From positions 1 through 39,425 of the forward strand of contig CACOAO010000016.1 of NCBI GenBank assembly GCA_902625215.1: a DNA stretch of 39,425 bases, read 5' to 3'. The notes under the pieces were generated by a model. The model saw only the letters and a program-made list of their open reading frames with translations, was not told where the DNA came from and did not search any database. Source of the stretch: an uncultured SAR116 cluster alpha proteobacterium. GTDB lineage: Bacteria > Pseudomonadota > Alphaproteobacteria > Puniceispirillales > Marisalimonadaceae. Position 1 is the stretch's first letter, and every line of letters begins with the position of its first letter. Positions 46 to 5,812 of the stretch are shown here, in pieces. Position numbers and translations under genes: made by a program.

Positions 46-348
46 TTAAATAATTACATTAAAACCTTCAAACTCTGGATGACCTAAATAAATATCATTA
101 TGTTTTCCTGCACCACTATGTGCTTTTCTAAAAGCATCGGATTTTGTCCAATTTGTAAAATCTTTTTCTGTCTTCCATGTACTATGAGAAGCATAAAGTG
201 TAAAGGTATCTGTATTTTTACCTTTTATTAAATTAAATTTTTGGAAACCAGGAACATTTTTAAGAAAAGTGTCACGTTGTTTCCAAATATTTTCAAATTC
301 AATTTCACGACCTAATACAATTTTAAATCGGTTCATCGCTATATACAT
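46..348 (-). CDS. IsdG/HmoA-like antibiotic-biosynthesis-monooxygenase (ABM) domain protein
   Basis: Small single-domain protein of about 100 residues resembling the ABM superfamily, which includes the haem-degrading monooxygenases IsdG and HmoA. Seen: a GF-x-x-F segment after the first helix and a W-x-x-SDAF-x-x-AH block. An early Asn, a Trp and a His (about N6, W67 and H77 from the start chosen here) fall at the spacing of the IsdG catalytic triad Asn-Trp-His. Start choice: an upstream in-frame ATG (355-357) directly abuts an AGGAG, whereas the ATG at 346-348 lies 9 nt after that AGGAG, so the latter is preferred. Haem degradation is an inference from the triad; other ABM proteins oxidise quinols or aromatic metabolites. 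It is a lone leftward gene at the window edge, and no haem uptake genes are visible beside it. Confidence 0.75.
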   Translation of the reverse strand: MYIAMNRFKIVLGREIEFENIWKQRDTFLKNVPGFQKFNLIKGKNTDTFTLYASHSTWKTEKDFTNWTKSDAFRKAHSGAGKHNDIYLGHPEFEGFNVII

Positions 349-673
349 ATTAAACATCTCCTAATATAAATATTTATGAAAAGTTTTTATTTTTAAAATC
401 ATTTTTAATAATATTGTTTATTGCATTGTGTTCTCTAATATTTTGAATAATAAAAAATAATCCTAATTCAGTGAAATTTCTACAAAATAATTGTTAGCAT
501 AAATAAAATTAGCTTTTCTGCATTAAGAAACATAATTACAACCCATAGTTTGCTTTTAATTAATGTGTAACCTAAAACAATATTGAACAAATTATGGTAG
601 TAATCGTAATTATTGAAAATTGGACTAAACCTTGCTAAGTTAAACTTCAGAGGTAAAACATAAGAGGTATGTT
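349..673. other. AT-rich intergenic region between two divergent small genes
   Basis: No coding frame or RNA gene is evident in these 325 bases. The left edge carries the AGGAG ribosome-binding site of the leftward monooxygenase (358-362). The right part carries the promoter and ribosome-binding site of the cysteine-rich gene. The middle is featureless AT-rich sequence. Confidence 0.5.
613..641 (+). promoter_or_regulatory. Sigma-70-type promoter of the cysteine-rich gene
   Basis: TTGAAA (613-618), a 17-nt spacer, then TAAGTT (636-641) preceded by TGC, which gives an extended -10. It lies about 30 nt upstream of the ATG at 674, with a ribosome-binding site AAGAGGT at 662-668. Assigned by motif matching only. 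Confidence 0.5.
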
Positions 674-826
674 ATGACTGAACAAATAGATAAAGAAGAA
701 AATTGTTGTAAAAATACATGTTGTGCTGACGGTTGTTGTAGCGATGGTTGTGTTTCTGGGAATTGTAGTACTACGTGTTGTGCAGATGGCTGTTGTTCTG
801 AAAAAGACAACTGTTGTGAGTACTGA
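674..826 (+). CDS. 50-residue cysteine-rich protein, possible metal-binding (metallothionein-like) peptide
   Basis: I do not recognise the family. The frame encodes 50 residues, 14 of them Cys (positions 11, 12, 16, 17, 21, 22, 26, 31, 35, 36, 40, 41, 47 and 48). Most occur as CC pairs separated by three residues, and TCCADGCCS occurs twice (residues 15-23 and 34-42). There is no His, no aromatic residue except the penultimate-to-last EY end, no signal peptide and no membrane segment. The first ten residues are acidic and Cys-free. An AAGAGGT ribosome-binding site precedes the ATG, with an extended -10 promoter upstream and an A/T hairpin terminator downstream, so it looks like a real monocistronic gene. 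All 14 Cys codons are TGT. A cytoplasmic thiolate cluster for Zn, Cu or Cd is the simplest inference; a redox buffer or a precursor peptide is possible. The CC-x3-CC periodicity differs from the CxC/CxxC-plus-His pattern of cyanobacterial SmtA. Confidence 0.7.
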   Translation: MTEQIDKEENCCKNTCCADGCCSDGCVSGNCSTTCCADGCCSEKDNCCEY

Positions 827-877: not shown

Positions 878-909
878 AAAAAAACCTTTTTTATATTTAA
901 GGTTTTTTA
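878..909 (+). terminator. Intrinsic terminator after the cysteine-rich gene
   Basis: AAAAAACCTT (879-888) pairs perfectly with AAGGTTTTTT (899-908) across a 10-nt loop. The stem ends in a T tract and, being flanked by A and T runs, could work in both directions. It lies 50 nt past the stop at 826 and faces the leftward pseudogene. Confidence 0.6.
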
Positions 910-3614: not shown

Positions 3615-3964
3615 TTACTTAATAAATTCCATCCACATTTTTCCACGAATAAGAGGATATTTCTTCTTTCTAAATTTCAATCGTTCTTGTCGTTCTGAGT
3701 ATCTTTTTAGTACCGAATAGACATTTGTATTCTTCCAGAGGTGACCTTCTTTGGTGGTCAAACCTTTCTCATTTAAGACCTTCGCAATTCTTCTATAACC
3801 CAATCCATCTTTATGAAGTGATTTGACAAGTCTATAAATCTCTAATTGTTTTTCTGAATATCGTGTTGGATTTTGTTCTGGAAGAAGGTTGTTGAACCTC
3901 TTGGAAACCTCATAAAACAGATAGTTTGAATACTCTCCGTTTGAAAAGTATTGTCCAATCTCTG
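3615..3964 (-). pseudogene. Recombinase-like helix-turn-helix frame without a clear start
   Basis: A frame open from the end of glmS down to TAA at 3615-3617. The C-terminal half (SLHKDGLGYRRIAKVLNEKG followed by LTTKEGHLWKNTNVYSVLKRY) resembles the DNA-binding recombinase region of serine recombinases: a Y-R-x-I-A-x-x-LNE-x-G helix-turn-helix and a W-x-x-x-x-V-x-x-x-L motif. Upstream it reads NYLFYEVSKRFNNLLPEQNP. There is no ATG or GTG in the frame; TTG at 3801-3803 would give only 62 residues, and the frame runs into the glmS coding end. No catalytic resolvase domain is present. It may be a truncated site-specific recombinase or a stand-alone DNA-binding protein that lost its start. Confidence 0.5.
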
Positions 3965-5812
3965 CTATTCTACTGTTACAGATTTCGCTAAATTTCTTGG
4001 TTGATCTACATCTGTACCTCTTTCATTAGCAATATGATAAGCCAGTAATTGAGCTGGAATAGCCATAAGGAATGGTGATAATAATGATTTAAAATCATCT
4101 TGAAAGTTTGGTATTTCTATTTTAAAATGAGCAAATATTGCCTTTTCAATACAATTCTTGTCTGCGATTAAAATAATTTTAGCTCCTCTTGAATGTGCTT
4201 CCTGCAAATTACTAATTGCTTTATCTTCATTACCATCTGAAACTAAAAACATTATTACCGGGACTTCATCTTCTATTAGAGCAATAGGACCATGTTTCAT
4301 TTCTCCGGCTGCGAAACCTTCAGCATGGATATAACTAATTTCTTTTAACTTTAATGCACCCTCTAATGCTAGAGGATACAAAAGTCCCCTACCAAGAAAA
4401 ATTATGCTTTTTGCATTTTTAATATTCTGCGATATAAACTTAATTTTATTTTCCATATTTAACATTTGCGCGAGAGCACCAGGCAGAGCATGAATGTAAG
4501 CACAAATATTTTTTATATGGTTTGTTTTTAAATTATTAAATTTTTTCCCTAAGGCAACTGCCATTATAAATAAAATAATCAATTGTGAGGTGAAAGATTT
4601 TGTACTTGCCACCCCTATTTCTGCCCCAACTCGAGTATATAAACTATAATCTACTTCTCTATCTATTGTACTATCCTCAACATTAACTATAGCATTAGTA
4701 CTTAATCCAAGCTTTTTCCCATGCCTTAAGGCCATTAGAGTATCTAAACTTTCACCAGACTGTGAGATTACCAACATAGCACTTTGGCCAAAAACAGACG
4801 GTTTGCGATATCTATATTCTGAGGCTAAATCTATTATAACAGGTAAGTCTGCGATATGTTCTATCCAATACTTACCTACCATTGCTGCATAGTAACTTGT
4901 TCCAGCAGCAGTAATTAGCAATGTATTTTTATGTTTAAATCCTAATTTATTTAGATCTATATTAATTTCAGATTGATTTTTGATGAAAGTTGAAATTGTT
5001 TGAGGAATTACGGAGGGTTGTTCAAATATCTCCTTTTCCATGAAATGTCTATAACCACCTTTTGTTATCAAACCAATTTCAGCTTTTATATTAATAATTT
5101 TTCTATTAACTTCTTCATCATTTGCGTTGAAAACATTAACATCTTCTGATTTGATTAATGCATGATCCCCATCCTCTAAATACATTACTCTTTGGGTTAA
5201 ATGATTTATAGAGTGAGCGTCAGAACCAATAAAATTGGATTTTTCACCTAAACCGATCGCTAAGGGTGATGAATTCCTTGATATAAATAATTCATTTGGA
5301 AAATCTAAACTCATTGCAACAAAAGCAAATGCACCTTTAATATCTCTTAATACAAGTCGACCTGCTTGCAGCAAATTATTTCCTGATCTTATGTATTTCA
5401 TAAACAGGTGAGGTAATACCTCGGTATCGGTCTGACTTCTAAAAGTATATCCTTCTGCGATTAGTTTATTTTTAATAGCTTCATAATTTTCTATAATTCC
5501 ATTATGAACAACTGCTACTTTATTTTCACTTGTCAAAGGATGAGCATTTTCAACACTAATATTTCCATGTGTGGCCCACCTTGTATGGCCTATAGCTATT
5601 GAAGCTTTAAAATATAATTTATCGTTAAATTCTTTTTTCAATTTATTAATTAAATTGACAAGTTTGCCTTCTGACTTCACAAGTTGGAGCGTCCCATTAT
5701 ATGCTGCAGCAATGCCAGCAGAGTCATAACCCCTGTATTCAAGTTTTTTCAAACCTTCAACAACGAGTTGGCTTGCATTTTGTTTTCCTATAACTGCAAC
5801 AACACCGCACAT
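3965..5812 (-). CDS. glmS: Glutamine-fructose-6-phosphate aminotransferase (isomerizing)
   Basis: Makes glucosamine-6-phosphate from fructose-6-phosphate and glutamine, the entry step to UDP-GlcNAc for peptidoglycan and lipid A. The 615 residues are the normal length. The N-terminal Ntn-type glutaminase begins MCGVV, with Cys2 as nucleophile after Met removal, followed by GHTRWATHG and the HNGIIENY and SQTDTEV motifs. Two SIS sugar-isomerase domains follow (from about residue 285), with the SQSGESLDT phosphate-binding loop and the catalytic stretch HAEGFAAGEMKHGPIALIE. The C-terminus ends QPRNLAKSVTVE, as usual. It is divergent from glmU across a 92-nt spacer that must hold both promoters. 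No glmS ribozyme is seen. Confidence 0.97.
   Translation of the reverse strand: MCGVVAVIGKQNASQLVVEGLKKLEYRGYDSAGIAAAYNGTLQLVKSEGKLVNLINKLKKEFNDKLYFKASIAIGHTRWATHGNISVENAHPLTSENKVAVVHNGIIENYEAIKNKLIAEGYTFRSQTDTEVLPHLFMKYIRSGNNLLQAGRLVLRDIKGAFAFVAMSLDFPNELFISRNSSPLAIGLGEKSNFIGSDAHSINHLTQRVMYLEDGDHALIKSEDVNVFNANDEEVNRKIINIKAEIGLITKGGYRHFMEKEIFEQPSVIPQTISTFIKNQSEINIDLNKLGFKHKNTLLITAAGTSYYAAMVGKYWIEHIADLPVIIDLASEYRYRKPSVFGQSAMLVISQSGESLDTLMALRHGKKLGLSTNAIVNVEDSTIDREVDYSLYTRVGAEIGVASTKSFTSQLIILFIMAVALGKKFNNLKTNHIKNICAYIHALPGALAQMLNMENKIKFISQNIKNAKSIIFLGRGLLYPLALEGALKLKEISYIHAEGFAAGEMKHGPIALIEDEVPVIMFLVSDGNEDKAISNLQEAHSRGAKIILIADKNCIEKAIFAHFKIEIPNFQDDFKSLLSPFLMAIPAQLLAYHIANERGTDVDQPRNLAKSVTVE

Follow-up and report, generated by a model that had tools for sequence, protein, structure and literature searches.

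A family of small fourteen-cysteine proteins in uncultured marine proteobacteria, with a probable metallothionein-like role

What does a bacterium do with a protein of 50 residues, 14 of which are cysteines? The question is raised by an open reading frame at positions 674-826 (+) of a stretch of 39,425 nucleotides from an uncultured SAR116 cluster alphaproteobacterium. This stretch, called the window below, is the whole of contig G000:C16, and a single copy of the gene was found in the genome (2.0 Mb in 66 contigs). Our best explanation, held with better than even confidence, is that the product is a metallothionein-like protein of the cytosol, small and mostly acidic, whose family lies outside the libraries that we searched.

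The gene and its conservation

Translation of the frame gives MTEQIDKEENCCKNTCCADGCCSDGCVSGNCSTTCCADGCCSEKDNCCEY, in which cysteine accounts for 28% of the residues and histidine is absent. The cysteines form six CC doublets and two single residues, spaced CC-x3-CC-x3-CC-x3-C-x4-C-x3-CC-x3-CC-x5-CC, a layout of seven cysteines, a short linker and seven cysteines that is nearly a mirror image. The nonapeptide TCCADGCCS occurs twice, at residues 15-23 (716-742, +) and 34-42 (773-799, +). The frame, the lack of histidine, the CC-x3-CC rhythm and the internal duplication had all been described in an earlier note on this DNA, and translation confirmed them. From the base composition of the window, the chance of at least 14 cysteines per 50 codons is ~4e-11. 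No hydrophobic N-terminal stretch was seen in the window protein by eye, in agreement with the note's statement that a signal peptide is missing.

The note had also called the gene complete, with promoter, Shine-Dalgarno site, frame and terminator, and this stood only in part. The frame is intact and a Shine-Dalgarno AGAGG is found at 663-667 (+), 6 nt 5' of the ATG, with similar purine-rich sites also preceding many homologues. The promoter found no support, as a consensus scan of positions 380-1000 revealed no sigma-70-like site upstream of the gene on the + strand. The terminator is a weak candidate at most: an A/T-rich hairpin with a terminal T-run at 879-908 (+) folds at -7.9 kcal/mol (z -1.55), 16 of 200 shuffles fold equally well, and it was not among the matches of a stricter terminator scan. 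The word AATTGATACTTAT, which precedes several homologues, was considered as a shared promoter element and rejected, since three genomes showed no enrichment of it at other places (36 matches with at most one mismatch vs 32 for the reversed control). An antisense frame from the list of open reading frames, at 640-810 (-), mirrors the cysteine codons; it was not taken as a gene and looks like a by-product because selection acts on the + frame.

Evidence for that selection came from a scan of the genomes of 84,980 species, which uncovered 29 homologous loci at E<=1e-3. In an alignment of 27 members the cysteines are kept nearly throughout, with exactly 14 in 25 members, 15 in L022 and 13 in L030. 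Twelve core cysteine columns show no substitution in any of the 34 core sequences, a set that leaves out the gapped variants L020, L023 and L030, the duplicate L028, and four loci with unit loss or decay (L043, L045, L046 and L047). In 11 of these 12 columns the codon switches between TGT and TGC. Pooled pN/pS was 0.23 (105 pairs of 15 genes). Among the 30 pairs listed of these 105, the unsaturated ones gave dN/dS of 0-0.26. In a separate comparison, a few very close pairs, separated by 0-2.5 synonymous differences, reached values up to 1.2. The frame at 674-826 (+) is a real gene under purifying selection; a search for homologues with conserved cysteine spacing and a synonymous/non-synonymous comparison, both proposed in the earlier note, thus had positive outcomes.

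Variation across the family follows the repeat. Cysteines are conserved from residue 11 to residue 48, the N-terminal ten residues being the variable part. L043, L045 and L046 lack exactly one 5-residue CC-x3 unit, L045 also having an inner TGA, and the copy at L047 is decayed, which points to a modular repeat in an accessory gene that can be lost. Modular change by whole units fits metallothioneins. Histidine is absent from 22 of the 27 members and occurs once, at varying places, in the other five; F, W, Y, L, I and V together amount to 0-5 residues per member, and the net charge ranges from -9 to 0. Low mass, very high cysteine content, conserved cysteine spacing and few aromatics, the traits of metallothioneins in the broad sense, are all present. 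An AlphaFold2 model, built without metal, had no confident fold (pLDDT 60.6, pTM 0.34); such a prediction is compatible with metal-dependent folding and neither supports nor refutes the metallothionein reading.

Distribution and genomic position

The 29 loci are labelled in their record titles as uncultured alpha-, beta- or gammaproteobacteria, one being given only as Pseudomonadota. In the window's genus (g1) the gene is present in 17 of the 37 genomes searched, own genome included, and in none of 24 genomes from other genera of the same order. A sample of the class had it in 5 of 385 genomes (own included) and a sample of the phylum in 1 of 398, the window's genome being that one; the order of genome G068 had it in 17 of 32. 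Incomplete genomes may account for part of this patchy presence, but the five members of the window's genus scored as at least 90% complete are all without the gene. One genome, G823, has two copies ~1.3 kb apart (L106:1498-1641 and from 2973), the second a shortened variant. No phage or plasmid carrier was confirmed: the peptide pattern matched 16 and 188 viral stretches, none of which held in tblastn. This spread past the Alphaproteobacteria, as judged by record labels, goes beyond the earlier note, as do the glmS/guaA positions and the zur/zrg linkage in genus g18 described below.

In the window the gene lies in a variable region that is bordered by the 3' side of glmS (3965-5812, -; TIGR01135 by NCBIfam). 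Its divergent neighbor, at 46-357 (-), encodes an ABM-domain protein (PF03992 by Pfam), homologues of which are also found near the Cys gene in L023, L032, L043 and L046, the one in L023 (5335-5664) being downstream on the same strand. An HTH_3 regulator (1918-2328, +; Pfam) belongs to a cluster with members in 11 of the 20 glmS-side stretches read in the genus, that of the window among them. Adjoining the 3' end of glmS is a serine-recombinase domain fragment at 3615-3803 (-), which matches PF07508 at E 2.3e-4, with 21.8 bits against a cut-off of 21.1.

The position next to glmS recurs. Across 30 loci (29 named ones and the window), the Cys gene is 3' of glmS in seven and 3' of guaA in six, three of the GlmS and two of the GuaA proteins having been compared with family models; in L122 and L123, glmS, recognized by eye, is again on the same side of the gene. 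The gene lies between ~10 bases and 3.1 kb from glmS or guaA. These loci are not independent because several are relatives of one another. The glmS and guaA sites are integration hotspots. In the window's genus, 24 of 40 genomes yielded glmS, and its 3' flank (3.9-10.4 kb) was read in 19 of the 23 besides the window's. The content of this flank varies from genome to genome across the 19 and the window; none of the 19 carries the Cys gene there, and eight carry it elsewhere. One cluster has open reading frames in 11 of the 20 glmS-side stretches; three of these frames were tested, and all match PF07508. The small proteins matching this family (L154:2232-2645, L154:388-729, L155:1558-1935 and 3615-3803 of the window) may belong to, or be left over from, an integrative element not yet described. 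A phage-type integrase adjoins the Cys gene in L059. No convincing direct repeats marking an insertion were found at glmS or guaA.

The recurrence 3' of glmS and guaA, together with the hypervariable region beside glmS, suggests that the Cys gene is an accessory gene spread by genomic islands, an interpretation to which we give less weight than to the binding of metal proposed below. Synonymous codon sharing was examined as a sign of horizontal transfer: it was somewhat above expectation for the Cys gene in many between-lineage pairs and near expectation for glmS and guaA, with the window's own pairs at expectation. The test is a weak one because it uses 28-46 codons per pair and the pairs are not independent. 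Two kinds of small proteins with a C-x2-C ... C-x2-C (zinc-ribbon-like) pattern were also seen near the Cys gene in several congeners and not in the window (L026:4751-4972, L026:8777-8959 and similar frames); one kind had no Pfam match and the other a Rhodanese_C match below the cut-off.

The zinc link and competing explanations

The window protein is likely to work like a metallothionein. With no visible signal peptide, it would remain in the reducing cytosol, where its 14 thiols should stay reduced and could wrap several soft metal ions as metal-thiolate clusters. By analogy, each chain might hold ~4-5 Zn(II), or more Cu(I), and the two mirrored halves of seven cysteines may provide two clusters. 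The cell would gain a means of buffering or storing metal, most likely zinc.

The pointer to zinc was found in genus g18, in the order of G068. A zur gene was identified in 11 of its 13 genomes (E<=1e-25), and the Cys gene is present in the same 11, always ~0.1-0.75 kb from zur and beside zrgE and/or zrgB of the Zrg type; ten of these copies are intact and that of G814 is a 20-codon remnant. The Fur-family neighbor has 34-38% identity to the Zur of the window's genome vs 21-26% to its Fur where the latter matched, and its best NCBIfam match is the Zur model, below the cut-off. In L010 zur is followed by genes for an FtsX permease, a DUF3299 protein and an ABC ATPase, and the same trio stands 3' of znuA in the window's genome. 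In Vibrio, ABC permease, ATPase and DUF3299 genes are part of Zrg, a zinc-uptake system under the control of Zur, and the Zrg operon of Vibrio parahaemolyticus is strongly induced under zinc lack, according to the accessible portion of the report (PMC9817125). ZnuA was detected in none of the ten g18 genomes tested and in five of six genomes of the window's genus, all read from incomplete assemblies. A precedent is offered by Synechococcus WH8102, in which Zur activates the metallothionein gene bmtA, as stated in the available part of that study (PMC9337993). Because the g18 gene adjoins zur and Zrg-type genes in all 11 genomes with zur, we favor zinc as the main metal, again with less weight than metal binding as such.

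The genome of the window has its zur on a different contig from the Cys gene, in a zinc-uptake cluster (L070:3424-8969) with znuC, znuB, znuA and Zrg-like ABC/FtsX/DUF3299 genes. This zur was assigned through its ZnuA neighbor (PF01297), with znuC and znuB recognized by eye, and the best NCBIfam matches of Zur and ZnuA are the models of these names, both below the cut-off. A clear palindrome resembling a Zur box, TGTTAYGTTATAACATTRC, precedes znuA in five of five genomes of the genus. Upstream of the Cys gene no Zur box beyond chance was found in 55 loci, a few of them on the same contig twice: the best matches had 2-6 mismatches, and at most three mismatches were seen in 11 of the 55 loci vs 30 of 300 single-base shuffles of the window sequence. 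In the window, L012, L014 and L016, the best match runs into the start codon.

This result bears on the most serious of the competing explanations, namely that the linkage to zur in g18 came about by accident when an island gene landed at a tmRNA/zur boundary, so that the gene's function need not involve zinc. We give this a substantial chance, somewhat short of even. Four of the five g18 loci scanned (L010, L013, L057 and L058; not L056) have a tmRNA gene at a distance of ~1.4-3.8 kb from the Cys gene, so a single insertion at the edge of an island could have brought the gene next to zur by hitchhiking. The lack of a Zur box above chance agrees with this, as does the location of the gene elsewhere in other genera; in the 12 other zur loci of G068's order, the Cys gene was absent from the 3.4 kb stretch in every case. 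Against it, the adjacency has been kept in all 11 g18 genomes with zur, one of them with the remnant, despite the divergence of Zur, which is 60-67% identical between the two g18 subgroups, nearly the same distance as separates the Zur proteins of other genera from the query (56-67%).

The choice of metal is the next point of doubt. A protein binding copper(I) or mixed soft metals through its thiolates, with a role like that of MymT, appears unlikely. Dense CC motifs and the absence of histidine suit Cu(I)-thiolate cores, the family has the former and no conserved histidine, and outside g18 no zinc gene was recognized beside the Cys gene. No copper gene was recognized there by eye either, and the only recurrent metal genes seen near the Cys gene are the zinc ones. 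Neither a metal exporter nor an ArsR/MerR regulator was recognized beside it, most neighbors having been judged by eye.

The earlier note had offered a thiolate-cluster or redox peptide, or else a modified-peptide precursor. The thiolate cluster is the reading we prefer, by inference, and a cytosolic thiol redox buffer or a store of cysteine or sulfur, in which the thiols and not the metal matter, ranks behind it as an improbable rival. Such a role would account for 28% cysteine in a tiny acidic protein and for a patchy accessory distribution, but it is the spacing of the cysteines, and not their content alone, that is kept over great divergence, which a store would not need, and no reductase or sulfur gene was recognized by eye in the recurrent neighbor clusters. 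The precursor of a RiPP-type modified peptide, little supported and in our estimate most improbable, would suit a short cysteine-rich peptide and the genome with two copies ~1.3 kb apart, but the cysteines are conserved over nearly the whole length with the variable part at the N-terminus, and no modification or export enzyme was recognized in 33 recurrent neighbor clusters (by eye, some by Pfam).

Returning to the metallothionein-like reading with zinc, one may tentatively go further, to a proposal that we consider less probable than not: a separate class of bacterial metallothioneins, with mirrored halves of seven cysteines and a CC-x3 unit gained or lost whole, carried on islands beside glmS, guaA or tmRNA genes among ocean proteobacteria, and serving as a Zur-tied zinc bank in one lineage without detectable ZnuA. 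Trace metals in the open ocean are scarce and variable. Metallothioneins of that habitat are documented for marine cyanobacteria in the accessible text of one paper (PMC9337993). A conserved family in bacteria of the SAR116 type and in other uncultured proteobacteria of the sea would imply that metals are buffered or banked by heterotrophs too, and that this trait is traded on islands. The family in addition offers a clean cysteine framework on which to study how metals might be selected by a bacterial metallothionein that has no histidine. It is real and worth a bench test, its function resting on inference.

Comparison with known systems

No significant match of the family to Pfam, NCBIfam or PHROG was obtained, nor any of the window protein to PDB sequences, in agreement with the note's description of it as unrecognized. 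The best Pfam scores were at chance level, to families of the high-sulfur keratin and conotoxin type (E 0.3 and 0.5), and were driven by cysteine content. High-sulfur keratins and conotoxins are secreted or structural disulfide proteins of animals; the likeness is one of cysteine content only, and we claim no homology.

The closest comparison is with SmtA/BmtA (PF02069), which are likewise small cysteine-rich proteins of ~50 residues (profile length 51) with a zinc context. The family differs from them in its CC-x3-CC rhythm, its 14 cysteines, the lack of a conserved histidine ligand and the lack of a confident predicted fold, while SmtA and the Pseudomonas metallothioneins are folded clusters containing histidine, in the available parts of two sources (PMC10612145, PMC7387436). 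PF02069 matched none of the 27 members at E<=1 and none of 40 genomes of the window's genus, the window's included, Synechococcus elongatus being positive among 14 controls; the note's view that the protein is not of the SmtA type is borne out. The genomic settings have one feature in common, as the marine bmtA also adjoins an integrase-like gene, its neighbor in WH8102 being weakly similar to a phage integrase (PMC9337993, in the portion available).

A search of full-text literature, most subscription papers lying outside it, gave no match for metallothionein together with SAR116, and no title or opening of an abstract among the papers listed by related searches described such a cysteine-rich family. 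MymT, the mycobacterial copper metallothionein, is likened to the family by description only, both having an unusual motif; the accessible part of one source presents it as a bacterial metal-binding peptide whose motif is unlike those of other bacterial metallothioneins (PMC10612145). Judged by its sequences, the family stands outside SmtA/BmtA and represents a new, apparently undescribed family of the broad metallothionein kind.
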